From NCBI GenBank assembly GCA_031263875.1, contig JAISEX010000223.1, positions 1 to 14,366 on the forward strand: a DNA stretch of 14,366 nt, given 5' to 3'. The notes beneath the pieces were generated by a model that worked only from the letters and a program-made list of their open reading frames with translations, did not search any database and was not told where the DNA came from. Shown piece by piece: positions 437 to 14,366 of the stretch (positions are counted from its first letter, which is position 1; each line of letters begins with the position of its first letter). The position numbers and the translations under genes are program-made. The DNA is from Eubacteriales Family XIII. Incertae Sedis bacterium (GTDB lineage: Bacteria; Bacillota; Clostridia; Peptostreptococcales; Anaerovoracaceae).

Positions 437-1270
437 CTACTCTATAACCACCGACATATCGGCAGGCTTGCCGAAATATATCCAGGTGGTAGAAATAGCG
501 TCGATACCTGTCCCTGCATAGGCTCCGGCGTTCTCGCCATTGACGCCTCCCGCGGCGATAAGGCGGGCGCCGCTTCCCGCAGCCCTGATCCTTTCGACGA
601 TCCCTTTCAGCATATCGGGCGGCAGCTTGTCGAATTGCAGCGCGTCCGCGCCGGCGCGGATCATCGCAAACGCGTCTTCCTCAGTTTCCACCTCGACGCA
701 AATTTCCTTATCGCAGACCTTTTGCCGGATCTCGGGCAGTTTACCGGCAAGCCCGGCATAACCGCCGAGTTTTTTTAAATGATTTTCAAAAATGAGGATC
801 GTCTCTCCGAGTCCGAGCCGATGCGGAAGCGCGCCTCCGGCAAGCGCGGCGTTAATGGACACTGCCTTCGTACCGGGAAAAACCTTGCGCGTGGTCAGCA
901 CCGCTATATCCGGATTGACCGCTTTTGCCGCGCTGACGAGCTTCGCCGTGCGCGTGGAGATGCCGCACGAGTATTCAAGCAGATTGAGTGTGACCTTCCA
1001 TGCCCGGTGAATGTCATCGGTGCGGCCTTCCGCCTTGAGAAACACCTCGCCGGGCTGCGCTTTGCCGCCCGATTCCGCCGTCTGCACGATGTCCAGATTG
1101 AAGCGGCGCAGTATCTGTTCCGCTTCTTCCACCGATGAGAGCGTAATGGGATCGCGGCTGTAATAGCCGATGCTTCCCACCTCCTTCCCGATGCCGAGCA
1201 GGTGCGTAGTCAAATCAAAATATGGCACATCTTCCGCAATCCATTCATCGAGCAAACTTGTCTTTATCAT
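437..1270 (-). CDS. modD: ModD, NadC-like phosphoribosyltransferase-family protein
   Basis: This 277-residue protein belongs to the ModD group of the quinolinate phosphoribosyltransferase (NadC) family. Visible family motifs are CGISTRTAKLV (102-112), TTRKVFPGTK (126-135), HRLGLGETILIFENHL (150-165), the metal/phosphate-region EVE (193-195), and LQFDKLPP with the Gly-rich AAGGVN loop (239-244). The length is normal for the family. ModD is usually encoded beside molybdate transport genes; its exact reaction is unsettled as far as I know, so only family membership is firm. The ATG is preceded by GTGAGGA four bases away. The gene lies 24 bases after the ABC permease gene and is probably on the same transcript. 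Because no ModA, ModB or ModC is in the window, its presence links molybdenum or tungsten only loosely to the neighbouring FecCD importer. A true NadC is less likely, since no nadA or nadB is nearby. Confidence 0.85.
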   Translation of the reverse strand: MIKTSLLDEWIAEDVPYFDLTTHLLGIGKEVGSIGYYSRDPITLSSVEEAEQILRRFNLDIVQTAESGGKAQPGEVFLKAEGRTDDIHRAWKVTLNLLEYSCGISTRTAKLVSAAKAVNPDIAVLTTRKVFPGTKAVSINAALAGGALPHRLGLGETILIFENHLKKLGGYAGLAGKLPEIRQKVCDKEICVEVETEEDAFAMIRAGADALQFDKLPPDMLKGIVERIRAAGSGARLIAAGGVNGENAGAYAGTGIDAISTTWIYFGKPADMSVVIE

Positions 1271-1294: not shown

Positions 1295-3511
1295 CTATTC
1301 CTTGTCATTCATGGCGCTGTCTCCGGCGCCCGGCCAGAATTTATACACCCATTTATTCGAACTTTTGTATTTGACCGCGACGAGACTGCCCTCCTCGGAA
1401 AGAAAATAGGCGCTTCGCATTTCGGACAGTATCTGTTTTTTTCGCGCCGGATCTTTCACGATGTCTTTCTCGCCGAAATCCTTCAGTATCCGGAAATCAT
1501 CGGGGCTGTCCGATAAGTAGCTCATGAAATACGGCGACTGCGGAAAACTTGGCTTATTGATGCCGATGTACGGATCGTATGGCTGCACTATCAGCGTTTC
1601 AACCTCGTCCGGATCGATGGAGTTTGTCATGCCGTCATCAAACCACAGACCGTTTGCGTTTAAATACGAAAGCGTGTTTTCAAAGCTTTCATCGAGGTAG
1701 ACAAAGGAATTATTGAGATGGTAAGAGAACGAATTCACATCGTTTTCGCCATCAAAGGTAAACATGAGGATGCCGAGCGGCTCATCCTTCGGGAAGTATC
1801 TGTCCTCGGTCTTCTGCGCGGAAATGTCCGCCCTGATCGCTGCAAGCAACCGTGCCCTGTTTTCGGCGTCAATGCTCAGGGAAAACATACTGCGATAAGT
1901 CGGGTCGGCAAGAAATATGTCTCCGCCAGTGAACGCTTCCCGTGCCCATAACATATCGGACGACGCGTCGCCGTTTTCCGGCCCCGCAAGCACGGCGTCC
2001 CTGCCGAGACGCACCGGCTCCGTATTTTCAAAGGCCAGCAGGGAACGAAGTTGCGAGAGGGATGCCCTGTCATAATACCACGTTTTCGTTTTCCCGCTTT
2101 CGAGCGTGTAGGTAAAACTCACATCATAGGGCACGACGGTGCCTGTCTCAAAATTATCGCCGGTGCCGGAGCGGAGCGGCTTTCTGCCACCATCCGAAAT
2201 TTCACCGTGAATTCGCAGGGCAAGCGCGACGTCGGCCTCGCTTGTGAAAGAATACGCGGCGGAGAAATAGTAATCATGCCCCGTACTGCTGCCGAGCGCG
2301 GGAACGCCGACATAAGAAGGAGCTCCCACAGAGGACACCGATACCGCCGTCACGCCTTCCGCGTCAGGCAGGGACGTGTATGCCCCGTAACCGATTACCG
2401 CGCCCGCCGTGCAGACAAGAAGCAGAAATGCCCGAACCGCGATAGAGGGCGCATGAGGCCGCGCGGAAAGCAATAGTCTATCGCCGCCAAGGATGCCGAG
2501 CGCGAAAATAACGACAAGCACCGCAAGCCCGAAGACGAGGCTGACGCCTGCCGAAAGATCAAAGGCGAGCGCACCGGCAAAGAGCAGCGGCACAAAGGCG
2601 CAGATGCGCGTCACAATCGGATTCTTGGAGGCAAAGCCCGCCTGCTCCGCACGTCTTTTCCGCATAATTATCAGACCCAGCAGCGTGGTCGCAATCACGA
2701 CGACGACCCATACGACAAGAATGGTCGGTGCAATTTTTTCAGGCATGTCCGTCTCAAGCGGCCGGTAAAACATCCGGTGTGCCTCTAAATCCTCGAAGAA
2801 AAACAACACGGGATTTGCGGATGAAAACATGTCCGTCACGGACGGAGCCGCCGGCGCATCGCCGAGAAAAGGCATCGCGCCAAAGGGATTACCCCACAGC
2901 AAGTGTTTCATAAAGGTGTTTGCCGCAGAGGAGAGGACATAGGGTGCGGCAAGCAACGCCGCCGAAAAGAAGACGGCCTCCGGCATCGTCCCCGCAAGCA
3001 GGCAGCCCACCGCGGCGACCGCAAACGCGGCCATTGCCGTGACAAAAATCCCCGCGCTGACATACAGGAAAGCGGCCGTCATCCCCTGATACGGCTCAAG
3101 CGCGACGAGATTGAGCGCGAGCGATAGAGCCATCGGTATAATAATTGTGACCGCAAGCAGGGCCGCGCCGACAAGAAACCTGTTCAGATAGAGCCTGACC
3201 CTGCCGACGCCGAGCGTGAAATAGACGGAAGCCCTGCGCTGGTCGAGGACGAAGCGAAACGACAGGAGGCCGAACGCAAAGCCATAGAGGACAGCGAATG
3301 CCTGAACTGCCGTCACAAAGTCATCGCCGATAAACCGGAATTTCATCTGCATATGCGTGACCGCGACGCTGAAGATGGAATCGCCCGGTATGCCCGCCGT
3401 CGAGAACGGTATCAGGAAAAGCAGTACGCAAAATCCGGCTGACGCAAAACCAAGGCTGCCTTGAAGCTGCCGTCTTACGTCATGCCGGGCGGCTCCGCTG
3501 CGGCCCGCCAT
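1295..3511 (-). CDS. YtrC/YtrD-like ABC transporter permease with DUF6449-like C-terminal region
   Basis: This protein of about 738 residues is the membrane partner of the ATPase just upstream. The first 380 residues hold roughly eight to ten hydrophobic segments (near 21-40, 68-90, 112-135, 147-175, 178-198, 263-284, 300-318, 322-340, 358-378). The last 360 residues are soluble, with short patterns such as ALRIHGEI and FTYTLESGKTKTWYYD that recall DUF6449 of YtrC-type permeases. The start is either GTG at 3514 or ATG at 3511. Both follow a perfect GGAGGT (3521-3526), at 6 and 9 bases. I chose ATG, whose codon shares a base with the ATPase stop (TGATG). Family members work as exporters or envelope-stress ABC systems with unknown substrates; the substrate here cannot be told from sequence. 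Confidence 0.78.
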   Translation of the reverse strand: MAGRSGAARHDVRRQLQGSLGFASAGFCVLLFLIPFSTAGIPGDSIFSVAVTHMQMKFRFIGDDFVTAVQAFAVLYGFAFGLLSFRFVLDQRRASVYFTLGVGRVRLYLNRFLVGAALLAVTIIIPMALSLALNLVALEPYQGMTAAFLYVSAGIFVTAMAAFAVAAVGCLLAGTMPEAVFFSAALLAAPYVLSSAANTFMKHLLWGNPFGAMPFLGDAPAAPSVTDMFSSANPVLFFFEDLEAHRMFYRPLETDMPEKIAPTILVVWVVVVIATTLLGLIIMRKRRAEQAGFASKNPIVTRICAFVPLLFAGALAFDLSAGVSLVFGLAVLVVIFALGILGGDRLLLSARPHAPSIAVRAFLLLVCTAGAVIGYGAYTSLPDAEGVTAVSVSSVGAPSYVGVPALGSSTGHDYYFSAAYSFTSEADVALALRIHGEISDGGRKPLRSGTGDNFETGTVVPYDVSFTYTLESGKTKTWYYDRASLSQLRSLLAFENTEPVRLGRDAVLAGPENGDASSDMLWAREAFTGGDIFLADPTYRSMFSLSIDAENRARLLAAIRADISAQKTEDRYFPKDEPLGILMFTFDGENDVNSFSYHLNNSFVYLDESFENTLSYLNANGLWFDDGMTNSIDPDEVETLIVQPYDPYIGINKPSFPQSPYFMSYLSDSPDDFRILKDFGEKDIVKDPARKKQILSEMRSAYFLSEEGSLVAVKYKSSNKWVYKFWPGAGDSAMNDKE

Positions 3512-4272
3512 CACGTTTGCACCTCCGCAGCGCCGCCGTTTCTCTCCGGCCCAAAAATACCGGCGAACGCCGCATCGTCGATATCGCGCTCGGAGAGGAA
3601 ATACTGTTCGAGCGTCCCGTGCGCGGCCTTGATCTCCGCGACCGGGCCGACGTAGCCGAGCCTGCGCCCGTGTATCATCACGATCTTGTCGATATTATCC
3701 TCAAGCTCCCGCAGATTGTGGGAGGTGACAATGGCCGTCGCATTTGAGGTTTTCACATAGTCCGCAAGAAGCGTGTTCATTACGCCTCTCATGGAAAGGT
3801 CGAGCCCGTCAAAAATTTCATCGAGCAGCAGGTAGCGGGGTTTTGTCGAAAACGCGAGAATGATGCCCGCCTGTCGTCGCATCCCCTTTGAAAAACTGCC
3901 GATTTTCTGCGTCCGGTCAAGCCGGAACGCGGCGCACAAAGACGCGAACGTCCCCTCGTCCCACGCCGGATAGTAACCGGCATAGAAATCACGCATATCG
4001 TCGAGCGAAGCCTGCGGCGGGAAATACATATCCTCCGTCAACATAAATGTCCGCGACTTCTTTTCGGCATTCTCGTATACGGCCTCACCGTCAAGAAGCG
4101 CCTCGCCGGTCTCGGGGCGGTACATGCCGGAGATGACGCGAAGCAGGGTTGTCTTGCCCGCGCCGTTATAGCCGATCAGCCCGCAGACCGCGCCGGTATC
4201 CGCCGTAAAGCTGATGCCTTCGAGAACGGATACGCCGAAATATGATTTGCTCACGTTTCTTGTTTCTATCAT
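3511..4272 (-). CDS. ABC transporter ATPase, YtrB-like
   Basis: This 253-residue nucleotide-binding subunit powers the permease encoded next. It has Walker A GYNGAGKTT (34-42), a signature in the variant form FSKGM (127-131) instead of LSGGQ, Walker B YLLLDE (147-152) with the catalytic Glu at 152, a D-loop GLD, and the H-loop His185 in TSHN. The Q-loop region reads MLTEDMYF, with no clear Gln. The variant signature and the YPAWDE stretch (101-106) are typical of YtrB-like ATPases. Its ATG overlaps the stop of the preceding surface protein gene by four bases (ATGA), implying translational coupling, so this ABC pair is made together with the surface proteins. Confidence 0.88.
   Translation of the reverse strand: MIETRNVSKSYFGVSVLEGISFTADTGAVCGLIGYNGAGKTTLLRVISGMYRPETGEALLDGEAVYENAEKKSRTFMLTEDMYFPPQASLDDMRDFYAGYYPAWDEGTFASLCAAFRLDRTQKIGSFSKGMRRQAGIILAFSTKPRYLLLDEIFDGLDLSMRGVMNTLLADYVKTSNATAIVTSHNLRELEDNIDKIVMIHGRRLGYVGPVAEIKAAHGTLEQYFLSERDIDDAAFAGIFGPERNGGAAEVQT
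3521..3526 (-). promoter_or_regulatory. Strong ribosome binding site for the ABC permease
   Basis: The minus strand reads GGAGGT, a full Shine-Dalgarno core, inside the end of the ATPase gene. It lies 6 bases before GTG (3514) and 9 before ATG (3511), so it supports both candidate starts. Confidence 0.7.
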
Positions 4273-5735
4273 AGGCCGGCCCGTTCCGTTTCTGCGGTTT
4301 CCGCTGTTGCCGCCGCCTGTTCCGTGCCGACGGTTTCGACGGCTGCCGCCGCCCGCTTCTTTTTCTTGTTCCCGCGGGTGATAAGCATTATGGCAATCAA
4401 GGCAATAACGCCGATGCCGATGCCGACCGGGATAATCGGGAAACCGCCGCCCGCCTCTTTCAGGCTGCCGCTGACGAGAATCAGGTCATTCGTGTTTTGG
4501 ATGTCGAGGCTGACATAGCCGGACGTGGCCGTACCGTCCCTCGCGATCTGTACCGGTTTGCCGCTCACCGGGTCAATGTGGTAGATATCCACGGTGGCGC
4601 CTCCGCCAAAATGCGTGCCGGCCGCGACATAGAGCTCCGCGGTCGCCGGAAGCTGTTCGTGCTTGTCGAATCTGAGCATAAGAGCGTCGCCGTCCGTCCG
4701 TATGTTTTCGGGCATATCCTCGGTGATCCGTGCCATCATATCGACGTCGACCGCCGCGGTCAGATCGCTGCCGAGGAACGAGAGGGAATAGAGCGCATTC
4801 CCGGCTTCGTCCTGTTTGGTGAACGTCACCTTTTCGTAGCGCCCCATCGCGTTCGCGAGAAGCTCCTTCACACTGAAATCATCGCTGCCAAGGATCGCCA
4901 TCGTATAGACCATCCCGTCCTTGCCCGTCATGGAGGTGACGCTTGCCGGTGCGAGCGCAGCCTCCGTATCGTCCTCAGCGGCACTGTCCGGTGAAACGGG
5001 CGTCAGTCCGTTCGACGGGCTGCTTACCGCGCTGTCTCCGCTGTTTACGGCGGTCTTTTGCGGTGTGCCGTCGGTCTTGTTTGTGGTCGTATCGCCGCCG
5101 GAAGTCCCGCTCGAACTGCTGCTTCCGCTCTTGCCATCGCCGGAAGTTTTCCCGGAACCGCTCGAACTTCCCGAATTTCCGGAGCCGCCCGAACTTCCGC
5201 TCCCGCCCGTATCGCTCCCGGAATTGCCGGCATTTTCGGAGTCGCCCGAACTGTTCACCGTAACGGTTATCGTCGTCGAGTTGCTGCGGAACTGGCGAAG
5301 CGAGGCTGTCAGCGTGACTGTCGTCGTCCCCGGTGACACGCCGGAGATCGACACGGCGCCGCCCGAATAGCTCGCTCGTGCGACGGAGCCATTGGAAGAG
5401 ACCGCCGAGACCTGGGTTTGATAGGTGCTGTATTTCGAGCCGGCGCAGGTGCATTGCCCGTTGCCGTCAAGGCAACCGAGGTCGCCGCAGGTCTGAGGGC
5501 ATTCGGCCATGCCGCAGCCGGGCGTCTGCTTATCCGACGCCGGATTGAGGCTTACGCTGACCGTGCGGCTCTCGCCCGCGTTCAGCGATACCGAGGATTG
5601 GCTGGGCGAAATGCCGACCTGACCTCTGTCAAAATACGCGTATGCGCTGCCGCTTATCGCGAAGACCGCGACAATGGCCGTGACGATCAGGCATGTCATT
5701 TTAAATTTTTTGCTCCTAATGATTCTTGTCATCAT
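4269..5735 (-). CDS. Secreted, membrane-anchored protein with six-cysteine Ig-like (BIG2-type) domain
   Basis: This 488-residue protein has a signal peptide (basic RSKKFK, hydrophobic core, likely cleavage after AYA at 33). It continues with a BIG2-like beta domain (about 38-160, ending GVSPGTTTVTLTA) holding a loop of six cysteines spaced C-x4-C-x3-C-x4-C-x6-C-x-C (C74 to C97). A Ser/Gly-rich linker (about 162-220) follows, then a second domain (about 265-425) with FDKHEQLPATAELYV and VDIYHIDPVSGKPVQI. That domain resembles a beta module seen before C-terminal anchors of other Gram-positive surface proteins. Last come a membrane helix (432-453) and a Lys/Ala/Glu-rich tail, with no LPxTG. The ATG overlaps the lipoprotein stop (ATGA), and AGGGGAG lies upstream. 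The cysteine loop recurs in the giant surface protein of this window. Metal binding is possible but unproven; disulphides or an EGF-like fold are alternatives. Confidence 0.8.
   Translation of the reverse strand: MMTRIIRSKKFKMTCLIVTAIVAVFAISGSAYAYFDRGQVGISPSQSSVSLNAGESRTVSVSLNPASDKQTPGCGMAECPQTCGDLGCLDGNGQCTCAGSKYSTYQTQVSAVSSNGSVARASYSGGAVSISGVSPGTTTVTLTASLRQFRSNSTTITVTVNSSGDSENAGNSGSDTGGSGSSGGSGNSGSSSGSGKTSGDGKSGSSSSSGTSGGDTTTNKTDGTPQKTAVNSGDSAVSSPSNGLTPVSPDSAAEDDTEAALAPASVTSMTGKDGMVYTMAILGSDDFSVKELLANAMGRYEKVTFTKQDEAGNALYSLSFLGSDLTAAVDVDMMARITEDMPENIRTDGDALMLRFDKHEQLPATAELYVAAGTHFGGGATVDIYHIDPVSGKPVQIARDGTATSGYVSLDIQNTNDLILVSGSLKEAGGGFPIIPVGIGIGVIALIAIMLITRGNKKKKRAAAAVETVGTEQAAATAETAETERAGL
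5073..5252 (-). other. Ser/Gly-rich low-complexity linker
   Basis: Residues 162-221 of the six-cysteine surface protein consist almost wholly of Ser, Gly, Asn, Asp and Thr in short SGSG-type runs. Such a stretch is expected to be a flexible stalk between the N-terminal cysteine domain and the membrane-proximal domain. Confidence 0.75.
5445..5516 (-). other. Six-cysteine loop in Ig-like domain (copy 1)
   Basis: Cysteines 74, 79, 83, 88, 95 and 97 of the 488-residue protein fall within 24 residues between two predicted strands of a BIG2-like domain. The order matches copy 2 (12904-13008): a close pair, a middle cysteine, an LGC tripeptide, and a final C-x-C. No other cysteine lies in the predicted mature protein. 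Confidence 0.7.
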
Positions 5736-6538
5736 TCCTGTTCTCCCCTGTTCACGTAGCTGTATACCGAAATCGAAAGCTCCGCGTCCGCGGATGATTT
5801 TGAAGTTGCCGTTACCGTCGTGCCGTCCGCCGTGAATTCATACCGGCCGCCGAAGTGACTTACAAGCGCCTCGGCGAGATTGGCGGCGACGTCATACCGG
5901 TCGTCCGTGAGAAACTCGTGGCCGTGAAGCGCCACCGCTCCGTCGCGCTCGTCAGCGCCGCTGAGAAGCGAACCGCCCACCGTTTCGCCGCTGTCCTCGA
6001 AACGTATCCATGCGATGCAGCGAATATCAAAGACGTGCGTCACCTCAACAGTTACGCTCCCGGGCCTGGCGTCCACCGTTTCAAGCGTGAGACCGCTCGG
6101 CGCAAGCGTCTCTATGGTCTGCGCCTTTGCCGCGTATTTGCCCGACGCGTCCGTGATGGCGGGCAGCCCGCCGTTGTCCGTATCGCCGAAGCGTACCGTA
6201 ATGTCGCCGTCTTTAATTCTGTCCACCGATACCGTGATAATCAGATCGCTTCCCTCCGCCGTCACGGTAATGTCTTTGCTCTTGACCGTCTCGTTTGCGA
6301 TCCTGATCTTCGGTTCAAAACCGTCCGCCTTGATCTCCCGGTCGAAAGCACCTGTCATCACGATATACTGCGTCTCATTGCTCCCCTCGTTAAAAGAGCT
6401 AAATTCCACGCCCACAAGACGCGGCGAAGATTCCTCATCGTAAACGCCGCCTCCCGAGCAACCGCCAAGGAGCAAAAATGTTGTTAAGAAAACAAATATA
6501 AGACTGTTAGTCCAAAAACGGTGCGAATACTTTGACAT
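5732..6538 (-). CDS. Lipoprotein with the A-B surface module and H-x-H motif
   Basis: This 268-residue protein opens with a lipoprotein signal ending LLLGGC, with Cys27 the predicted lipid-modified residue. Residues about 41-150 match domain A of the giant surface protein (IVMTGAFDREIK, then a Gly-Lys beta region and AITDASGKY). Residues about 158-262 match domain B, including HGHEFL (205-210), followed by an amphipathic AANLAEALV helix and YEFTADGTTVTATSKS strands. I do not recognise A or B as named families. The start at 6538 is chosen because GGGAAGGGG lies 4-12 bases upstream; the ATG at 6553 has its SD-like bases too close. The gene overlaps the importer ATPase by 32 bases and the next gene by 4. 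It is probably an accessory ligand-binding lipoprotein on the outer face of the membrane. Confidence 0.75.
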   Translation of the reverse strand: MSKYSHRFWTNSLIFVFLTTFLLLGGCSGGGVYDEESSPRLVGVEFSSFNEGSNETQYIVMTGAFDREIKADGFEPKIRIANETVKSKDITVTAEGSDLIITVSVDRIKDGDITVRFGDTDNGGLPAITDASGKYAAKAQTIETLAPSGLTLETVDARPGSVTVEVTHVFDIRCIAWIRFEDSGETVGGSLLSGADERDGAVALHGHEFLTDDRYDVAANLAEALVSHFGGRYEFTADGTTVTATSKSSADAELSISVYSYVNRGEQE

Positions 6539-7301
6539 GCTTCCCCTTCCCATCTTCCACTTCTATGATTTTAGCGCGGACGCCGTACAGTTCCCGTGCC
6601 ATATCCGCGGTAATAACGTCTCCCGATGCGCCGCGGGTCGCGTTACCTACGCCGCTGATCGCCGCCACCTCCGCGTCGAGCAGCAAGGCATGGTTGGGAT
6701 CGTGCGAGGTAAAGACAATGCCCTTGCCCGCCGCCGCAAGACTGCCGAGGATGCCGAGGACTTTCATCTGGTTGCCGATGTCGAGATTTGCGGCAGGCTC
6801 ATCTAAAAAGAGGTAATCCGCGCCCTGCGCGATGGCTCTCGCGATAAGAACCATTTGCCGCTCGCCGCCGCTGATTTTCGTATACGCGCGATCTTCCAGA
6901 TGACCGATGCCGAGCAGCCCCATCGCTTCCGCCGCGCGTTTTTTGTCGCTTTCGGACGGCAGGGAAAACGCGTGCATAAGCCCGGCTCTGCCCATCAGCA
7001 CGATGTCGAAGGCGGTATAGGCAAAGGGCGGGTTGTGCGACTGCGGAACAGAGGCGATCAGGCCTGCCCGCTCTTTCCGGTCAAGGGCAAACAAATCCCT
7101 GCCACCGATGGATACGCTGCCGCCGAGCGGACGCAGGGAACCCATCAGGGTACGGAACAGCGTGGTCTTTCCGATCCCGTTCCGCCCGAGAATGCACAGC
7201 ACATCTCCACGGCGTATATCGAGGGAGAAATCCTCAATGATAGGCAATGAGCCATACCCGCACCTCAAATCTTTGATGGAAAGTATGCCAGCGCTATGCA
7301 T
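6507..7301 (-). CDS. FecE/BtuD-type ABC importer ATPase
   Basis: This 264-residue ATPase energises the FecCD-type permease encoded two genes upstream. Motifs are Walker A GRNGIGKTT (39-47), Q-loop Gln87 in SVPQSH, signature ISGGE (143-147), Walker B YLFLDE (163-168), D-loop ANLD and H-loop His200 in TSHD. The length suits the iron-siderophore/B12/MolC branch of type II importers. The reading frame stays open 49 codons further upstream inside the receptor gene, but ABC homology starts only at GILSIKDLRCGYG, so the ATG at 7301 is the sensible start. It overlaps the receptor stop by 8 bases. The substrate cannot be assigned from the ATPase. Confidence 0.9.
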   Translation of the reverse strand: MHSAGILSIKDLRCGYGSLPIIEDFSLDIRRGDVLCILGRNGIGKTTLFRTLMGSLRPLGGSVSIGGRDLFALDRKERAGLIASVPQSHNPPFAYTAFDIVLMGRAGLMHAFSLPSESDKKRAAEAMGLLGIGHLEDRAYTKISGGERQMVLIARAIAQGADYLFLDEPAANLDIGNQMKVLGILGSLAAAGKGIVFTSHDPNHALLLDAEVAAISGVGNATRGASGDVITADMARELYGVRAKIIEVEDGKGKHVKVFAPFLD

Positions 7302-8730
7302 CCGGGGCCCGCCTTTCGAGTATGCGCGTCGCATCGTCATAACTGAGCGGATAGTCCAAAAATTCGCGGTAGAACCGCTGCACCTCGGAAGCCATGTCGA
7401 GGTCCGCAAACAATTCGGGATGGATGGTCTTCGCCATATACTCGACAAGCAATATCTTCTGGAGCCCCATATCCCAATAGAACACCCCCGAGGGAGTGAG
7501 TATGACCCGTTTGTTTTTAATTGCGCCGATCTGCGCGTATTTCGCGTTGGCGTAAGCTGCCGCCGCGACCTCGTCCGCGGCGCCGTCCTCGCTCCCGCTC
7601 ATGCCGCAGTGGTCGATAAAGATATAGTCGGGATTCCACGAGGCGAGTTTCTCCGCGTCCGTGTTAATGCGGTTGCCGCCTTCAAGCTCTTTCGTTACGG
7701 CTGCGCCGCCCGCCGCCTCGATCACTTCTATAATGTCGGACAGCCTGCCGTAGGTGGTGAGGATGTCCGTGCCCGCGTAATAGACCGTAGGCCGCTCCGC
7801 GTCGGTGAGGCCGTCCGTGCGGCTCTTGATAGACGCGAGGCGCTCGTCGAAATATTCGTCATAGGCGTCCGCTCTTGCCTGCGCGTCCGCGCCGAGCGGC
7901 GCGGCGAAGGTGTGAAGCAATGCCTTCACATCGTCAAGCGTCCTCGTCGTCTCCCCTTGGATATACCCGACCTTCGTTTTTTCAAGAAGCGCGATCTCAT
8001 TGGGCCGTGGGAAGGTGTAGACTAAATCCGGCTCATACGAAAAGAGCGTTTCCATATTGACCGCCGCATGGACGTCTTCGAGCACGGGAAGCCTGTCGAT
8101 GTGCTTATATACCTCAAACGCCCACGGGAAATTTTCCGTCTGGACGTCGGCGCGGACAACGATGCGGCTTTCCGCCCCGAGCAGGGTAAGCGCTTCATAG
8201 GACGGGCCGTAGACCGCCGCAAGCCTCTGCGGGTTTTCGGGTATCTGCGCCGCAGAGTTGCTGCCAGCGCTGCCGGAGCGGGCTGTGCCGTAGCCGCCCC
8301 TTATGTCCAGCCCCGCGGGAGCCGCCGGCGGCTCCGCTTCTTCCGGCGTAATGCCCTCGGCAGGCCGGAACGAGACGCTTTCCCCGTCAAGCCCATCGAA
8401 GACCCAATCCCCGTCCGGGTAGTCAATTTCGATCGCCTGTTTGAGCGCGGCGGCAACGGTCTGCGCATTGTCGCCGACGAGAAGGCTGACCGGCTGGTCG
8501 TCGCAGTCGCCGCAGGGATTTGACGCCTGGTCTTGGTAGACGTTCATGGTGTAACCGAGATAGGTAATGACGCCCGGCTCGCGCAGGCTGCCGCTGACGG
8601 TAATGGTGTAGACGTCCCTGCCGCCGCAGCCGATAAACAGAAGGGACAGCGCGGACAAAAATACCAAGAGGAGCGCGCAAAATACCTTCCGCATTGCCGT
8701 TCTTCGTTTCGGGTATATCGTTGCATTCAT
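7294..8730 (-). CDS. Substrate-binding lipoprotein of FecCD-type importer, with extra N-terminal domain
   Basis: This 478-residue protein has a basic N-terminus, a hydrophobic segment and the lipobox-like LLFIGC, with Cys35 predicted to be lipidated. Residues about 165-460 form a class III periplasmic-binding-type domain (PF01497 family). Evidence includes NPQRLAAVYGPSYEALTLLG, then METLFSYEPDLVYTF, a long linking helix (280-305), and WNPDYIFIDH (365-374). Members bind iron-siderophores, haem, cobalamin, or molybdate/tungstate (MolA). Before it lies an unusual domain (38-145) with a CGDC motif (73-76) and a helix-strand pattern like domain B of the neighbouring surface proteins, then an Ala/Ser/Gly linker. 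Two starts are possible: ATG 8730, with GGAAGGG 11 bases upstream, or ATG 8694, which gives a more usual signal length but a weak SD. The gene begins 3 bases after the permease gene. Confidence 0.87.
   Translation of the reverse strand: MNATIYPKRRTAMRKVFCALLLVFLSALSLLFIGCGGRDVYTITVSGSLREPGVITYLGYTMNVYQDQASNPCGDCDDQPVSLLVGDNAQTVAAALKQAIEIDYPDGDWVFDGLDGESVSFRPAEGITPEEAEPPAAPAGLDIRGGYGTARSGSAGSNSAAQIPENPQRLAAVYGPSYEALTLLGAESRIVVRADVQTENFPWAFEVYKHIDRLPVLEDVHAAVNMETLFSYEPDLVYTFPRPNEIALLEKTKVGYIQGETTRTLDDVKALLHTFAAPLGADAQARADAYDEYFDERLASIKSRTDGLTDAERPTVYYAGTDILTTYGRLSDIIEVIEAAGGAAVTKELEGGNRINTDAEKLASWNPDYIFIDHCGMSGSEDGAADEVAAAAYANAKYAQIGAIKNKRVILTPSGVFYWDMGLQKILLVEYMAKTIHPELFADLDMASEVQRFYREFLDYPLSYDDATRILERRAPDA
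8296..8619 (-). other. Extra N-terminal domain on the importer receptor
   Basis: Residues 38-145 precede the normal binding-protein fold. The order is a beta region (YTITVSGSL), a cysteine pair CGDC followed by DD, a helix (TVAAALKQAI), then strands (WVFDGLDGESVSFRPAE) and an Ala/Gly/Ser linker. The helix-then-strands half resembles the end of domain B in the lipoprotein and the giant surface protein, but the H-x-H motif is absent. Homology is suggestive, not proven. Confidence 0.5.
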
Positions 8731-8733
8731 ACG

Positions 8734-9759
8734 TTATTGATCCCTTCCCGAGCGCGCAAGCAGGGCGAGGAAAAGCGGCGCGCCGATAAGCGCGGTCAGC
8801 ACCCCGAGCGGCAACTCGATGGCGAGCAGCGTCCGCGCCGCGTCGTCTACGGCCATCAGGAAAACCGCCCCGATGAGCAGGGACGCCGGAAGCAGTTTCC
8901 GGTAATCGGGTCCCGTAATAAGCCGCGCGATATGCGGCACGATGAGGCCCACCCACGCTATCATGCCCCCGACCGCGACCGACCCGGATGTGAGCAGGGT
9001 TGCGCAGAGGATCACAAGCATACGCGATTTTCCGGCATCGACGCCGAGCGCGTTTATTTCCTCGTCCGAAAGCGAGAGGACATTGAGCCGGAAGCGCATA
9101 AGGAACAGAAGCAGCCCTCCTATAGCGAGCGGCGCAAGCATAATGAGGATATCCTCTTTGATAACATAGGCCAGACCGCCCATCAGCCAAAAGGTGATCG
9201 CCGGCAGCTCGTCATAGGGGTCGGCGGCGAGCTTCACGCTGGAGATAAGCGCGGAAAATATGGCGGTGATAACCATGCCGCAGAGGACGAGGGTCGTGGT
9301 ATTGTCGCGCATCCGGCCGGAAAACCGGACGCCCGCAAGAGAGGATATGGCGACGCCGACGATGCCGAAACAGAAGGCGATAACTTGCAGCCATATCTTG
9401 CCGAGCCCGAGAAAGATCGCGAGCGCCGCGCCGAAACTCGCGCCCGCCGCCGCGCCGAGAATATCGGGCGACACGAGCGGATTGCGGAAGATGCCCTGAT
9501 AGGTCGCGCCCGACACGGAAAGGGCGGAACCGATAAGCGCCGACGCGATCAGGCGCGGCAGCCGCATGGTGAAAAAGACCGTCCCGTCCATGCTTCCCGA
9601 ATCCGCGCGCCCCGTAATAAGGGCGAGCAGCTCGCGCGGCGCGATACTGTATCTGCCGACGCACAGCGACACCGCAAAAACGACGATAAGCAGAGCGATA
9701 AGCCCCGCAAATATCAGCGCGTTATTTTGTTTTGGTGTAACTCTCTTTTTTCGTGCCAT
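8734..9759 (-). CDS. FecCD-family ABC importer permease
   Basis: This 341-residue polytopic membrane protein is the channel of a type II importer (FecCD/BtuC/MolB family). Signature stretches are VFFTMRLPRLIASALIG (61-77), SVSGATYQGIFRNPLVSPDI (81-100), GGMIAWVGLIVPHIAR (264-279) and ELPLGVLTALIGAPLFLALL near the end. About ten membrane segments are expected, and the length is standard. The open frame extends 32 codons upstream, but those residues are not membrane-like and overlap a strong leader hairpin. The ATG at 9759 starts a typical basic N-terminus (MARKKR) behind a modest GAGAGA SD. Only one permease is present, so it should act as a homodimer. It opens the tightly packed importer operon. 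Confidence 0.92.
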   Translation of the reverse strand: MARKKRVTPKQNNALIFAGLIALLIVVFAVSLCVGRYSIAPRELLALITGRADSGSMDGTVFFTMRLPRLIASALIGSALSVSGATYQGIFRNPLVSPDILGAAAGASFGAALAIFLGLGKIWLQVIAFCFGIVGVAISSLAGVRFSGRMRDNTTTLVLCGMVITAIFSALISSVKLAADPYDELPAITFWLMGGLAYVIKEDILIMLAPLAIGGLLLFLMRFRLNVLSLSDEEINALGVDAGKSRMLVILCATLLTSGSVAVGGMIAWVGLIVPHIARLITGPDYRKLLPASLLIGAVFLMAVDDAARTLLAIELPLGVLTALIGAPLFLALLARSGRDQ

Positions 9760-9779
9760 ACGCGATCTCTCTTCTGCGC

Positions 9780-9860
9780 GAAAGACAACCGGCGGTTCTG
9801 GGCTGTCTTTCGATGGTTCTCTTTTGTATGCGGAGCCGGGGAATCCGGCCCGCATACAAA
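9780..9860 (-). promoter_or_regulatory. Two strong hairpins in the leader of the importer operon
   Basis: The 132-base gap before the FecCD permease holds two hairpins. The first has 11-base-pair arms 9823-9833 and 9850-9860 plus an inner GCCGG/CCGGC stem (9835-9839, 9845-9849), with one bulged base. The second has arms GAAAGACA (9780-9787) and TGTCTTTC (9804-9811). On the minus-strand transcript neither is followed by a U-run. They could be an mRNA processing or stabilising structure, an attenuator, or a cis-regulatory RNA. I do not recognise a known riboswitch. Confidence 0.5.
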
Positions 9861-9891
9861 CCTCAGATTAGTTCAACAACATTCAAGTGTC

Positions 9892-10671
9892 TCAAACCGG
9901 ACAAGAGTCCGGAGCGTCATACCACCTCCCATCTTGCAATTCACCATTCCAACCTTGTAATGTCGGAAGATCAACACCATATCCTCGCAGGAAGATATTA
10001 TCGATAATATACATATACAGTGTTTCTTCCCCGTCACCTTCAAATTCAATGATATTATCGTTCGCAGTGAGCGTATACCCGGTCGGAAGCGGATTCGTTG
10101 TGGTAATAGATACCACGATGCCCTTTGCCAAGGTCGCGGGGTCAGGATAAGACTGGTAGTTGTCAATAAAGGCGGTGAATGTGTTTATCAGCAGCGGGCT
10201 GCGTGTACCAGCAATAGGAACGATATTCCCCGTCCCATCGTCTTTGTATAGACCGAGATGTATCATCCCGTTTCCCTGCACGGTTGAGCAAATTTCCATG
10301 CTAACCGTCGTATCGCCCTCATCCTGATAACTAACGGTTTCACCGAGATTGATAACGGTTACGAAATCCTCAATCGCGTCCGCTTGAACGCCATCAATGA
10401 GAATGCCGGTCATATTGCTGTCTATTGTCAACTTTCCGGACAATACGCTTGAGTATCCCGGGCTTGGAGCAACCGTAAAGGTAACGGTATCCGTCCCATT
10501 GGTGCCGATCGTTGTCCTCGCGAGCACGTCTTGACCGTTGATTGTGATAGCGAGTGTGAAATGGGGGTCTGGCGAACTGGGAACTACTACTGTCGATGAA
10601 TCGTAATAGAATGTTATGATAACCGTATTAGCGGTTATTGTCGCTGTATAATCTTCGTATGAAGTAGCCAT
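9892..10671 (-). CDS. Unrecognised 259-residue A-B module protein without signal peptide
   Basis: I do not recognise this family by name. The ATG at 10671 is chosen because AAAGGA lies seven bases upstream; an upstream GTG would add 23 Lys/Arg-rich residues and overlap a hairpin. The predicted protein is nearly all beta, with no signal peptide or membrane helix. Residues 135-223 align with domain B of the giant surface protein (GMIHLGLYK against GMVHFILLK; TAFIDNY against TAHFHDY; then GYTLTAN against GYTASYE). The two His of the motif become Phe168 and Asp170. Residues about 10-90 may correspond to domain A. The C-terminus (WNGELQDGRWYD, SCPV) is unlike the neighbours. The DNA is visibly more AT-rich than the surrounding genes (22 of 60 G+C in 9961-10020). 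Without a signal it may use another export route or stay cytoplasmic. Confidence 0.7.
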   Translation of the reverse strand: MATSYEDYTATITANTVIITFYYDSSTVVVPSSPDPHFTLAITINGQDVLARTTIGTNGTDTVTFTVAPSPGYSSVLSGKLTIDSNMTGILIDGVQADAIEDFVTVINLGETVSYQDEGDTTVSMEICSTVQGNGMIHLGLYKDDGTGNIVPIAGTRSPLLINTFTAFIDNYQSYPDPATLAKGIVVSITTTNPLPTGYTLTANDNIIEFEGDGEETLYMYIIDNIFLRGYGVDLPTLQGWNGELQDGRWYDAPDSCPV

Positions 10672-10678
10672 GTTAATT

Positions 10679-10684
10679 TCCTTT
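10679..10684 (-). promoter_or_regulatory. Ribosome binding site deciding the start of the 259-residue gene
   Basis: The minus strand reads AAAGGA, ending seven bases before the ATG at 10671. It favours this start over the GTG at 10740, which would otherwise extend the frame. Confidence 0.65.
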
Positions 10685-10719
10685 CTTTTTCTTATGTTTC
10701 TCCGAATACATCTTTTACC

Positions 10720-10750
10720 GCGCCCGAAACGTTGTTTCACTTCCGGGCGC
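10720..10750. other. Hairpin in the 5' leader of the 259-residue gene
   Basis: GCGCCCG-AA (10720-10728) pairs with TTCCGGGCGC (10741-10750), with one extra base and a 12-base loop. It lies between the TATAAT box and the start codon. No U-run follows on the minus strand. On the plus strand a T-rich stretch follows only after several bases, so a terminator reading is weak. Confidence 0.45.
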
Positions 10751-10780
10751 CGTGCACTTTATTTCTTCTTCAATCAAATT

Positions 10781-10786
10781 ATTATA
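10781..10786 (-). promoter_or_regulatory. Candidate -10 promoter box upstream of the 259-residue gene
   Basis: The minus strand reads a perfect TATAAT about 110 bases before the start codon, in the longest gap inside the gene block. No good TTGACA-like -35 box is visible at 16-18 bases upstream, and no extended -10 TG is present. The promoter call is therefore tentative. Confidence 0.35.
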
Positions 10787-10859
10787 CTCCCTTCTTCAAA
10801 ACATCTGTTGTGATAACGGATACGCGCATATTGTATGCATGTAATGTTTCTCCTGTTCC

Positions 10860-10898
10860 GCCCGGAATGACAGAGGCGCAACGCGTATCATTCCGAGC
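10860..10898. repeat. Hairpin repeat between the giant surface gene and the next gene
   Basis: GCCCGGAATGA (10860-10870) pairs with TCATTCCGAGC (10888-10898), with one G-U pair on the minus-strand RNA and an inner GCGCAACGC loop region. It begins 17 bases after the stop of the giant gene. The flank reads TCATTCCGAGCGAATAACGAAG, which recalls the dispersed palindromic repeats of the TCATTCNGAGCG type seen in many bacterial genomes. It could act as a 3' mRNA-end structure, but no U-run follows. Confidence 0.5.
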
Positions 10899-10914
10899 GA
10901 ATAACGAAGGTTAA

Positions 10915-13900
10915 TTAATTTCTGCTGCGCAGTTTCCCCGTCTGCAGCAAGAGGTTCATAACCAATGCCCCGATAGCGAGGAAGGCGAGGCACGCTAGCA
11001 TCAGAATCAGTACGAACGCATAGGTCGGCAGGTTTATGCCGCCGGTATCCTGCGCCGTAGAGACAGGAATGGCTTTCGCCGAATCGTCGGCAAACGATAC
11101 CGGATTTTGGCTTTCCGGCAGCAGGCCGCTCTCGTCCGCGGCGGCTTCGATTTCATCGGCTGCGTCTGTCGTCACCTGCGTATTTTGGTTTGTCGCGCCC
11201 GGTTGCGTGCTGTAATACGTGTTGTTATTCGTTACCGTCTTGCCATCCGCACCGGCTTTGCCAGTCGCGCCAGTTGCGCCGGTCGCGCCAGTTTTTCCGG
11301 TTGCGCCAGTTTTTCCGGGTGTGCCGGTTTCACCGGGCTGTTCGGTTTCGCCGGTTTCGTCTGGTGTGTCGGTTCCGCCGGCGCTCGCCTTGGGCAGTCC
11401 GGTGGCAGTGATCGGCAGAGCCACCACGAAATTATCCGAGAAAAGCACCTGCACCAACGCGCTGGCATCCCCGTTCGCATCGCCGGTCCCCAGTTTCGCC
11501 TGAAGTTTGGCAAACGCGGACGGCAGCAAAGTGACGACTGTGCTGCCCGCCGATAACGTGTAATCCGTCCCCTTGACAAGCAAGATGCCGCCGAGATACA
11601 CCGTGGCATTGGGGTCGAAGTCGCCGTTGATATGGATGGTCAGGTTGCCGTTCGCCGGTATGTCGTAGATGACGGCCGCGGGATCGGCGGCGACTACTTC
11701 GCCTGTCGTCTGGCCGGTTATGCTCACCGCATCTACCGTGCGCTCATTTTCGCCCGGCGTCGTATTGCCCGCGGCGTCAGTCGTGTTTCCGCTGTTTTGT
11801 ACGGTATTCACCGCGCCATATGCAACGAGTTGAAGATCGATGATCTCGCCCGCTGACGCGTTGTTCGCCGTGATGATAATGCGGCTCCCCACGGCGGTGG
11901 CCGTGTAGCCGGAGATCGCTATCTCGCCGTCGACCGGGGCGTAGCCTTCATCGGCTCCGCCATTGAATTTGTCAACGATAGACTGGGCGAAAGATGCCGC
12001 GTCAAGGTTCAGGTAGTCGTGGTAATGCGCCACAAAGGTCGCGCCATAGCCGTTGAGCTGATTGCCAAACGGCTGACCGTTCACCAGGAATTTGAGGTGA
12101 ACCATGCCCCGCGTGGTGTCCGCCGGCGCAACGACCGTCTTCGCCACAGACGCCTTGCCCGTTTCCGTACCGCGTACGTACGCGGCGTTCACCAGGCTTA
12201 CGCCATTGGGCACAAAGAGGTCGATGGTCGGGAAGGTGACGGAAACGCCGTTCCCATCGCCGGTGGTCAGCGAGGTTCCTACCCCGGTTCCCGCATTCTT
12301 CGGGGAGACCTGCAGCCTGCCCGAGAACGAAGCGAAATTGATATGCATTTTAAGTACCAGCGTATTTCCGCCCTCAACGGATATTTCCGACGCTGTCGCG
12401 CTGAGCGGATTCGTGCCGCCGATAGTCATATTCAGGCTGTCGATAAGCGCCTGCGCGTTGTTAAGGCTGATGGCCTTGTCAAACGGGATGCGGAGGGTGA
12501 TAAACTGGTCGTCGGTGCTGGTGCCGTCGGTGGTGGTATTAACCGTGCCACCGTGGCCCGTGCCCACGCTGTACGCCCCTGTTGTCTGAGCAGGCGCTTC
12601 TGTTGGCGGTTCAGGTTCTTCTTCTCCCGACACATTGACCGTCAGTACCAACGGCAGAGAATACCGGTAGGCGACGTAATCGTCGTCTGCGGCAGTCTGC
12701 GCGGTGTGCGGGTCGAGCGACGTGTTGTGCATATAAGCTTCGACGGCAACCGTCGTCGTGCCGGATGACACGCCGGTAATGGTGAGTTGGCCGGTAACCG
12801 GATCAAAATTGGCCGTTGCGACCGAACCGTTCGGATTGCCGACCGCAGCGCCTTTTATCTCCTCAATGCGCTGCAACACCGAGGTGTCCGTATATTGATT
12901 ATTACAAGCACAGAACCCAAGCGTCAGCTTGCTCACAACGCAGCCAAGGCTTTCGTTGCAGGGAATCGGCCCCATTGGATCGGTAATAGCGCCGTAACAG
13001 CCGCCGCACGTCGCGTAGGCGCGTTCGGACGTCTTGCTCGGCGTAAACTGGACCGTGACGGATTCGCCCGCCTTTACACTGACAGCGCTCCCGGCATCGG
13101 AAGATACGGTAAAGTTTTCCGTGTAGACCTTCATATTGGTCTTGTCTTGGAAGATGCCCGTCTTTGCGCTCCATGCCGGCGTTTCGGACGACCCGCCCGC
13201 ATAGCCGGTATCGCCTCCCGATTTCGTATTGGCGACCGCCGCGTTAAGAGCGGCAGTCTGCGCGTCGATTTCGCTCTGCAGATAGTAGATGGACGCGTTC
13301 ATCGAGCGCGCTTTTGCGAGTTCGTTTTGCAGCGCCGTATACGCATCCGCCGCGTAGTCTTCCGCGGACGCCGCCTGCGCCGTAGAAATGGCGGATAAAA
13401 TCGCCGTCTTATCTGCCTGCGTATCGCGGTCACGCGGATAGCCCACCAAAAGCAGATCGATCACATCTCCCGCCGCGGAGTTTTTTGCCGTGATGGTAAG
13501 GATATTACCCTCATAGCTCGCGGTATAGCCTGCGGCGAAAGTGGGAGCGGCTATAAGCCCCGCAACCCTCGATGTCAAACCAGCCGCCGTATCGGTGAGA
13601 TAGTCATGGAAGTGCGCGGTCATATTACCGCCTTTGTCATCAATCGGCGCAACCGGCTCCCCGTTCTTCAGCAAGATAAAGTGTACCATCCCGCGCGTCA
13701 TCGAAGGCGGCACTACGATTTCCTTGACGACGCGGGCATTTGCCGCAGCGGTCGCCGCCGTTTGGGAGACGGTCGAAAGCTGCGTACCCGTGGCCACCAC
13801 CATATTCACATTGGGGAAGACGATCGGATGTCCGTTCGCATCCGTCAATGAAGCAAGTGTTTTATCAGAACTCTTTGCGGTAGCGATCAGACGGCCGGTC

Positions 13901-14366
13901 GTGGCCGCATACGAGATGTGCATCGTCAGACGCAGTGTTTTACCATCCGCAAGCACTTCCGCCGTATTCGGCGGCTGATCGACTCTTGCTGTCGGATTGA
14001 TAGTTGTACCGCCATACGTAGCGGTAAATTCTTTTAATAACTCAGTCGCGTTTGCAACGGTGATATTCCTGTCAAACGTAACGTCGAGCACCATAAACTG
14101 GTCGTCTGTCGTGGCATCACTGGGCAACGTCGGAAGCTGATGATCCGTCGTGGCCTTATAGGAAACGACTGCGGCTTCGCTTACGGCACTAGGAGCTTCG
14201 GCAACGTTGATTTGAATCTCAATCGGCGCGGAGAAGCGCTGCGCCATCCACGTGTACCACGTGACGGGGTTCTGTCCCGCATGGTCGCGGATAATGGTGG
14301 AGCCGTCGATTTTGCCGGGGTCGGGGTGCGTGATAAAACTCTCAATGCGCACCGTGGTCGTACCCG
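10915..14366 (-). CDS. Giant multidomain surface protein, 5' end outside window
   Basis: The frame is open to the right edge; a GTG at 14352 is internal, since the codons before it (GTTTV) complete an Ig-like motif also found at residue 531. Counting from that GTG, 1145 residues are visible. In order they are the tail of an Ig-like domain (1-50), domain A (about 83-190), domain B (208-305) with HFHDYL (247-252), a FIVAR-like helical spacer (312-377), and a six-cysteine BIG2-like domain (about 400-575). Then come A again (614-720), B again (737-845) with HYHDYL (776-781), an X2/IPT-like beta domain (about 870-985), eleven collagen-like G-x-y triplets (1007-1039), a membrane helix (1108-1136) and a short basic tail KLRSRN. 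No LPxTG is present. It is probably a long surface-exposed protein that captures a ligand for the downstream FecCD importer; adhesion is the main alternative. Confidence 0.8.
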   Translation of the reverse strand, partial: GTTTVRIESFITHPDPGKIDGSTIIRDHAGQNPVTWYTWMAQRFSAPIEIQINVAEAPSAVSEAAVVSYKATTDHQLPTLPSDATTDDQFMVLDVTFDRNITVANATELLKEFTATYGGTTINPTARVDQPPNTAEVLADGKTLRLTMHISYAATTGRLIATAKSSDKTLASLTDANGHPIVFPNVNMVVATGTQLSTVSQTAATAAANARVVKEIVVPPSMTRGMVHFILLKNGEPVAPIDDKGGNMTAHFHDYLTDTAAGLTSRVAGLIAAPTFAAGYTASYEGNILTITAKNSAAGDVIDLLLVGYPRDRDTQADKTAILSAISTAQAASAEDYAADAYTALQNELAKARSMNASIYYLQSEIDAQTAALNAAVANTKSGGDTGYAGGSSETPAWSAKTGIFQDKTNMKVYTENFTVSSDAGSAVSVKAGESVTVQFTPSKTSERAYATCGGCYGAITDPMGPIPCNESLGCVVSKLTLGFCACNNQYTDTSVLQRIEEIKGAAVGNPNGSVATANFDPVTGQLTITGVSSGTTTVAVEAYMHNTSLDPHTAQTAADDDYVAYRYSLPLVLTVNVSGEEEPEPPTEAPAQTTGAYSVGTGHGGTVNTTTDGTSTDDQFITLRIPFDKAISLNNAQALIDSLNMTIGGTNPLSATASEISVEGGNTLVLKMHINFASFSGRLQVSPKNAGTGVGTSLTTGDGNGVSVTFPTIDLFVPNGVSLVNAAYVRGTETGKASVAKTVVAPADTTRGMVHLKFLVNGQPFGNQLNGYGATFVAHYHDYLNLDAASFAQSIVDKFNGGADEGYAPVDGEIAISGYTATAVGSRIIITANNASAGEIIDLQLVAYGAVNTVQNSGNTTDAAGNTTPGENERTVDAVSITGQTTGEVVAADPAAVIYDIPANGNLTIHINGDFDPNATVYLGGILLVKGTDYTLSAGSTVVTLLPSAFAKLQAKLGTGDANGDASALVQVLFSDNFVVALPITATGLPKASAGGTDTPDETGETEQPGETGTPGKTGATGKTGATGATGATGKAGADGKTVTNNNTYYSTQPGATNQNTQVTTDAADEIEAAADESGLLPESQNPVSFADDSAKAIPVSTAQDTGGINLPTYAFVLILMLACLAFLAIGALVMNLLLQTGKLRSRN
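11236..11334 (-). repeat. Collagen-like G-x-y triplet run
   Basis: Eleven consecutive Gly-x-y triplets (GET, GTP, GKT, GAT, GKT, GAT, GAT, GAT, GKA, GAD, GKT) sit between the last beta domain and the membrane anchor. The near-identical codons make a short tandem DNA repeat. This length is modest for bacterial collagen-like stalks and may vary by slippage. Confidence 0.8.
11818..12762 (-). repeat. Composite Ig-tail + A + B repeat, copy 2
   Basis: This stretch encodes residues 531-845 of the giant protein. Anchors shared with copy 1 are GTTTV, DDQF followed by FDK, a LKMHI core (LTMHI in copy 1), SGRL, TRGMVH, A-H-Y-H-D-Y-L and GEIIDLQLV. Confidence 0.75.
12904..13008 (-). other. Six-cysteine loop in Ig-like domain (copy 2)
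   Basis: Cysteines 449, 452, 465, 471, 481 and 483 of the giant protein have spacing C-x2-C-x12-C-x5-C-x9-C-x-C. The loop sits between VTVQFTPS and GSVATANFD, the same place as in the 488-residue protein (VSVSLNPAS and GSVARASYS), with LGC and final C-x-C shared. Confidence 0.7.
13222..13419 (-). other. FIVAR-like helical spacer
   Basis: Residues 312-377 show the FIVAR pattern: ADKTAILSAISTAQ, then EDYAADAYTALQNELAKAR and a closing helix EIDAQTAALNAAVANT. FIVAR modules are found in Gram-positive surface proteins, often as spacers or sugar-binding helices. It separates the two composite repeats. Confidence 0.75.
13438..14366 (-). repeat. Composite Ig-tail + A + B repeat, copy 1 (cut by window edge)
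   Basis: This stretch covers the visible part of the first composite unit, from GTTTV at the edge to residue 305 of the giant protein. The A domain begins DDQFMVLDVTFDRN and the B domain carries TRGMVHFILLKNGEPV and HFHDYL. The matching position in copy 2 suggests that another six-cysteine loop lies just beyond the window. Confidence 0.72.

Follow-up and report, generated by a model that had tools for sequence, protein, structure and literature searches.

What role is played by a domain pair that seems to recur on three proteins beside an ABC importer in one bacterial locus, and which ligand might it handle? The question is raised by a stretch of 14,366 nucleotides from a gut bacterium of Eubacteriales Family XIII. 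Incertae Sedis (GCA_031263875.1, the entire contig JAISEX010000223.1), hereafter the window, in which all genes lie on the minus strand. The largest product is a giant surface protein whose N-terminus is cut off by the contig end and whose C-terminus carries a membrane segment. A PF01032 permease, a PF01497 binding protein and a PF00005 ATPase define the importer as FecBCD-type; the alignment of the ATPase frame with relatives begins at about residue 45-55. The following features were located.

10915..14366, (-): giant surface protein, frame open up to the contig end
13777..14193, (-): giant domain A1 (local alignment and lipoprotein-profile match)
13429..13776, (-): giant domain B1 (local alignment and lipoprotein-profile match), His-Phe-His at 13606-13614
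12721..13098, (-): module C of the giant (E 3.1e-6 against a profile built from 9 proteins)
12193..12606, (-): giant domain A2 (local alignment and lipoprotein-profile match)
11806..12192, (-): giant domain B2 (local alignment and lipoprotein-profile match), His-Tyr-His at 12019-12027
11242..11355, (-): collagen-like part of the giant (PF01391, 22 bits, under the cut-off of 27.2)
9892..10671, (-): 259-residue protein, fourth A-B copy (profile-versus-profile comparison, split test, bridging proteins), G+C of the gene 47%
about 10363-10665 and about 9988-10362, (-): its A and B parts, respectively
8734..9855, (-): FecCD-type permease (PF01032, E 9.3e-82)
7294..8730, (-): FecB-type binding lipoprotein with an additional N-terminal domain (PF01497, E 2.3e-16; solved-structure profile search)
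8311..8619, (-): that N-terminal domain, probably a divergent B-type domain, Cys-Gly-Asp-Cys at 8503-8514
6507..7448, (-): importer ATPase, open frame (PF00005, E 1.3e-27)
5732..6553, (-): A-B lipoprotein, probable start at 6538
6089..6436, (-): lipoprotein domain A, Ig-like (alignment and predicted structure)
5750..6088, (-): lipoprotein domain B (alignment and predicted structure), His-Gly-His at 5918-5926
4269..5735, (-): 488-residue Cys-bearing protein with module C and a C-terminal membrane segment, Cys stretch at 5439-5519
3511..4272, (-): ATPase of a second ABC transporter (PF00005, E 1.5e-21), conserved in the cluster
1295..3514, (-): membrane partner of the second ABC transporter, no accepted family, conserved in the cluster
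437..1270, (-): ModD (TIGR01334, 223 bits, cut-off 178.85)

The first-pass annotation had proposed that the same A-B module occurs four times in these three proteins. Copies 1 to 3 (A1-B1 and A2-B2 of the giant, and the lipoprotein) were related by pairwise local alignments scored against 300 shuffles, with z values of 23.6 for A1/A2 and 23.9 for B1/B2; lipoprotein domain A reached 5.4 with A1 and 3.5 with A2, and lipoprotein domain B 9.8 with B1 and 4.4 with B2. In the same test the 259-residue protein, copy 4, stayed at background against each other copy (z ≤1.3), so that pairwise comparison alone would refute it, a verdict overruled by the profile tests. A profile from 22 lipoprotein sequences matched both modules of the giant (per-copy E 2.2e-15 and 3e-16) and gave 2.5 bits (E 0.77) on the 259-residue protein. 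When the profile of giant-type modules (9 copies) was compared with that of the 259-residue family (3 members), 201 columns were aligned in order with a probability of 97.4, an E of 1.3e-11 and a score of 82.9, the controls falling far below: 18.05 for the best of 60 column shuffles, 12.4 for the reversed profile, and 17.6 and 17.7 for two unrelated cluster families. The lipoprotein-only profile gave a weaker match to the same family (probability 65, E 5.9e-5, score 39.9; best shuffle 19.6). The match was also domain-specific, since A paired with the A part of the 259-residue family at 88.8% (E 2.5e-6) and B with its B part at 82.5% (E 9.8e-6), whereas the two cross-pairs and A against B each remained below 1%; the 13-row alignment used in domain comparisons omits L005, which was missed by the motif pattern. 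Finally, two proteins of one relative (L056:7732-8784 and L057:1143-2201) bridge the groups, with E values of 9.9e-19 and 1.7e-18 for the A-B profile and of 5.2e-17 and 2.9e-19 for the 259-residue-family profile, respectively. By these sequence comparisons, all four are homologous copies of a single A-B module, as had been proposed.

The G-M-[VI]-H strand, initially listed among the features of domain B, is found in the giant and in the 259-residue protein, whereas the lipoprotein has RCIAW instead. The strongest signature of B is a His-x-His motif. Across 33 aligned rows, of which some are almost the same sequence and none comes from the 259-residue family, it never varies, nor do one Arg and one Gly; the fourth copy lacks the motif. 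In line with the first reading, neither domain was recognised as a named family: nothing in Pfam or NCBIfam scored above cut-off for A or B, the nearest being LmeA (PF11209) on the lipoprotein with 19.9 bits for a cut-off of 27.3. The NEAT model (PF05031) did not match the giant, the 259-residue protein or the lipoprotein at E up to 1, nor did the HtaA Pfam model match the A-B proteins of the cluster at that level, and the A-B profile found no significant sequence among solved structures (best E 0.13). Structures were predicted for the lipoprotein copy and for the N-terminal domain of the binding protein. In the lipoprotein model, domain A is a beta-sandwich superposing on Ig domains and domain B superposes on the phage tail-sheath domain (PhiTE, Mu); NEAT and HtaA are not among the structure matches listed for it, which excludes neither. 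The N-terminal domain of the binding protein is probably a divergent B-type domain. Another Ig-like stretch, the Cys-bearing module C, is common to the giant and the 488-residue protein. The description of the A-B module as private holds with respect to curated families and may not extend to the A part alone, which gave weak matches (E 6e-7 to 7e-4) in 6 of the 8 genomes matched in one search. In the open literature searched, no prior description of the module or of the cluster was recognised.

The gene neighbourhood was conserved. In 16/16 genomes seen (the window, L004-L012, L027-L030, L071 and L078), the A-B lipoprotein gene adjoins the FecCD or binding-protein genes or lies at most two genes away, and both genes of the second ABC transporter are conserved in the cluster. 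Together with the modules shared between cluster proteins, this linkage supports the suggestion of a dedicated ligand-handling system, in which the A-B proteins would take part. Three genome entries (G684, G685 and G686) are the same contigs as G096, G175 and G095. A sulfite-oxidase-like molybdopterin fold considered for L007:257-2842, L010:8977-11118 and L027:7344-8771 was abandoned, since neither family searches nor a search of solved structures, run with part of the L007 protein, gave such a match.

The distribution of partner genes points to molybdenum. In a sample of 296 genomes, ModD was present in 7/10 genomes with a strong module match versus 3/286 others (p 3.8e-10), and MoaC in 10/10 versus 111/286 (p 1.0e-4), p-values which overstate the evidence because the genomes are related. 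These counts omit G250, with one partial match (E 3.2e-5); its inclusion gives 7/11 versus 3/285 for ModD and 10/11 versus 111/285 for MoaC. ModD adjoins cluster genes in six genomes (the window, L004, L006, L007, L073 and L075) and is absent from three module-bearing genomes of the family (G021, G052 and G119). Further genes were counted against 64 control genomes, drawn in list order from the 111 that have MoaC and lack the module; one of the controls, G030, bears a cluster fragment. ModA was found in all 16 module genomes (47/64 controls), so that an importer for plain molybdate is already there and the cluster cannot be the sole molybdate importer. Tungsten was rejected: AFOR, a family of tungsten enzymes, is not enriched in module genomes and is somewhat rarer there (4/16 versus 35/64, p 0.0495). 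Mo hydroxylases were unsupported as a common client (13/16 versus 42/64, p 0.37).

A second line of evidence comes from Candidatus Formimonas warabiya, where a Moco riboswitch (RF01055) was detected at L059:5809-5946 with 75.1 bits (cut-off 36) over the full length of the model (positions 1-135 of 135). It lies 222 bases upstream of a 323-residue A-B gene; after it come a 14-bp hairpin and a U-rich run, read as a terminator. The third stem of the riboswitch (GGACA/UGUCC) was taken as P3, a stem associated with the use of Mo and not of W (PMC2408646). No Moco riboswitch was found in the window or in the other cluster loci searched. Directly before the Formimonas A-B lipoprotein gene lies a regulator gene encoding an HTH and a PF12727 domain, the latter also scoring 185 bits against the C-terminal portion of a model for a molybdopterin biosynthesis protein, short of the full-length cut-off of 534.

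The enrichment of ModD and MoaC and the Formimonas riboswitch before an A-B gene are the basis for reading the ligand as a molybdenum species. We consider it probable (roughly 0.6) that the A-B module serves as the extracellular capture part in a surface-to-membrane relay for such a species, either molybdate or a Mo complex. The two B domains of the membrane-anchored giant would pick up the ligand, presumably through their His-x-His motifs, and the A-B lipoprotein would then take it over. The binding protein, perhaps via its B-type N-terminal domain, would deliver it to the FecCD importer for use by ModD and the Moco pathway of the cell; module C and the second ABC transporter may also take part. 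In a more specific form, advanced tentatively and at less than even odds, sheath-fold His-x-His domains would form a dedicated system for Mo scavenging at the surface of Gram-positive anaerobes. They would hand on the metal, as thiomolybdate, another Mo chelate or Moco itself, from giant to lipoprotein to the binding protein's own sheath-fold domain, and in one lineage or more a Moco riboswitch would control the system.

A relay of the same kind might carry another ligand, such as a Cu, Ni, Co or Fe chelate, heme or a corrinoid bound on the His-x-His and Cys motifs, the Mo-gene link reflecting shared lifestyle. This is unlikely in our estimation, yet several observations favour it besides the motifs themselves and the presence of ModA in 16/16 module genomes. 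Genes for a copper-type ATPase and DsbD flank two clusters (L058 and L007), MerR-type regulators adjoin the lipoprotein gene in G021, G052, G119 and G056 and are noted for L027-L030, one A-B protein bears a Shr-like Hb-interacting domain, and FecB-type binding proteins serve many ligands. Against it stand ModD within the cluster, MoaC in 10/10 genomes and a Moco riboswitch before an A-B gene. The loci searched yielded no riboswitch for cobalamin, NiCo or another metal at the gathering score. Distinctly improbable is that the A-B proteins serve at the surface as adhesins or sensors, produced when Mo is limiting, with FecBCD acting alone: collagen-like, SLH and fn3 parts do occur in A-B proteins, but the lipoprotein gene lies beside importer genes in 16/16 genomes and the binding protein itself probably bears a B-type domain. 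That only three copies exist, the 259-residue protein not being homologous, can hardly be maintained from its background pairwise scores, its 2.5 bits with the lipoprotein profile and its lack of His-x-His, against the controlled profile match, the domain-specific split test and the bridging proteins.

Gram-positive surface relays are known for heme. In the Isd heme relay, NEAT domains recur on surface proteins and close to an importer of the FecBCD type, with hand-off from wall to membrane. Here too one domain type is found several times on surface proteins and near such an importer, and a similar hand-off is likely. The differences are that A and B have no NEAT family match, that B is similar to a tail-sheath domain, that the lipoprotein comes on top of the binding protein, and that the context is Mo rather than heme. 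If the molybdenum relay is real, some gut and sediment anaerobes would acquire forms or concentrations of Mo that are beyond ModABC alone. Two unnamed domain families also gain a testable ligand, and a phage-tail-like fold is seen in a new use, probably in ligand binding or docking and apparently on an ABC binding protein too. A precedent is MolBC-A of Haemophilus influenzae, which imports molybdate in parallel with ModBC-A; no surface proteins are described for it in the available part of the report (PMC4031551). The binding protein of the cluster is related to MolA (E 2.2e-15 in the solved-structure profile search) and a ModABC system likewise stands alongside, with the difference that MolA ranked 9th of 13 matches and matched no better than other FecB-type proteins. 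As for modABCD operons, the ModD gene is a common element, lying next to a ModA gene in two module-negative genomes (G035 and G047), whereas in the present cluster it accompanies a FecBCD-type importer and the A-B proteins.

The first-pass annotation had claimed that a shared two-domain (A-B) surface module occurs four times in three proteins, and this was borne out, three copies by alignment and the fourth by profile-profile comparison. The two modules of the giant surface protein and that of the lipoprotein were clear in plain alignment and in a search with the lipoprotein profile, whereas the 259-aa protein was detected by neither. Profile-profile comparison of the 259-aa family with the A-B module gave an E-value of 1.3e-11 over 201 columns with the order kept, and its score of 82.9 exceeded the best of 60 column shuffles (18.05) and the reversed alignment (12.4). 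Taken domain by domain, A matched A only and B matched B only. Two proteins of one relative (L056:7732-8784 and L057:1143-2201) matched both profiles strongly and thus bridge the gap to the 259-aa protein. As judged from these comparisons, the four A-B copies are real.

The window is an entire contig of a fragmented genome (1.87 Mb, 319 contigs, 67.8% complete), and all ten described genes lie on its minus strand, in the following order:
minus strand, giant surface protein
9892-10671, minus strand, 259-aa protein
minus strand, FecCD permease
7294-8730, minus strand, binding protein
minus strand, importer ATPase
minus strand, A-B lipoprotein
minus strand, 488-aa Cys-bearing protein
1295-4272, minus strand, second ABC pair
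minus strand, ModD

The A-B lipoprotein, whose named relatives belong to Clostridiales Family XIII bacteria, adjoins the FecCD/binding-protein genes or lies at most two genes away in 16/16 genomes with visible lipoprotein neighbours (the window, L004-L012, L027-L030, L071 and L078). The Lachnospiraceae locus L071 reads lipoprotein, Cys protein, second ABC pair, permease, binding protein, ATPase and A-B surface protein. The cluster is rare: matches were found in 11 of the 296 genomes sampled from the window's family (10 strong, and G250 partial), in 1/391 of a class-wide sample, namely the window's own genome, and in 8/299 of the Eubacterium oxidoreducens family (two with the full module, six weak and in the first part only). 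A Cys-bearing Ig-like stretch is a third shared module, common to the 488-aa protein and the giant (E 3.1e-6), and several relatives have it on their surface proteins as well. Many relatives retain the second ABC pair in the cluster; its membrane protein had no match in the family search. The N-terminal domain of the binding protein, fused in the window, is a separate short protein in two relatives (L028:11611-12069, L058:13078-13527). A relative's A-B surface protein (L027:8880-11918) has two additions, SLH repeats and a Hb-interacting domain of the Shr-like type (PF07550, E 3e-8).

The cluster probably encodes a relay at the cell surface that supplies a FecBCD-type importer; its domains are unnamed, and molybdenum is the probable ligand. 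Most likely, the B domains of the giant would capture the ligand and pass it to the membrane A-B lipoprotein, which would dock with the binding protein or hand the ligand over to it for import via the FecCD permease and use in molybdenum cofactor (Moco) synthesis. The Isd architecture is similar to this relay, but the A and B domains had no match to the NEAT family in the family search.

The molybdenum reading draws on co-occurrence, position and regulation. In the family sample, MoaC was found in 10/10 module genomes against 111/286 others (p 1.0e-4) and ModD in 7/10 against 3/286 (p 3.8e-10), p-values that overstate the evidence since the genomes are related. ModD adjoins cluster genes in six genomes (the window, G096, G095, G039, G030 and G175); in G030, tallied as module-negative, the neighbour is the second ABC gene (75% identity) at a contig edge. 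ModD stands beside a ModA gene in G035 and G047, where the B and C genes were called by eye, and is located elsewhere in G056 and G197. A Moco riboswitch precedes another gene near ModD in G035. Against molybdenum stands ModA, present in 16/16 module genomes and in 47/64 controls (p 0.018, subject to the same relatedness of genomes). The cluster would therefore need either to import a different molybdenum form or to serve as a second route; it would then resemble MolBC-A, described in PMC4031551 as a second molybdate route in Haemophilus.

In the relative Candidatus Formimonas warabiya, a 323-aa A-B gene is preceded by a Moco riboswitch matched over its full length (75.1 bits, cut-off 36); between the two lie a ribosome-binding site and only short open frames (at most 59 aa). 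In the leader, a U-rich run follows a 14-bp hairpin, of which eight bases are exactly complementary to bases at the 3' P1 strand of the aptamer, so that ligand binding would favour the terminator and turn the gene off. The third stem is present; stem P3 is linked to molybdenum rather than tungsten use in PMC2408646. The regulator gene before the Formimonas A-B lipoprotein gene encodes a PF12727 domain; the same domain scores against the C-terminal portion of a molybdopterin biosynthesis model as well. Speaking against molybdenum, neither the window nor any other cluster locus searched gave a Moco riboswitch hit, and a relaxed threshold yielded none in the window and ten further loci.

Other observations also count against molybdenum. 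ModD is missing from three of the family's module genomes. MerR-type regulators are adjacent to and divergent from four lipoprotein genes (L027:15637-16518, L028:9163-9642, L029:4463-5446, L030:4815-5762); three of these regulators span 294-328 aa, with the MerR-family match confined to the N-terminal part. A copper-type P-ATPase and a DsbD_2 gene flank the cluster in two lineages (L058:13600-16807, L007:12398-16311), which makes a copper or copper-molybdenum link possible. The binding protein showed no special closeness to MolA in profile comparison.

By eye, loss of the His-x-His motif is graded, with His-Ala-His in the L057 bridging protein, His-Ala-Met in that of L056 and neither in the 259-aa protein. 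Both bridging proteins have a signal-peptide-like N-terminus; none was seen by eye in the 259-aa protein or its relatives P0013 and P0015. The G+C content of the 259-aa gene is 47%, against 58% for the giant. The 2367-aa protein encoded at L056:420-7520 contains three A-B modules, and its gene adjoins that of a separate 351-aa A-B protein.
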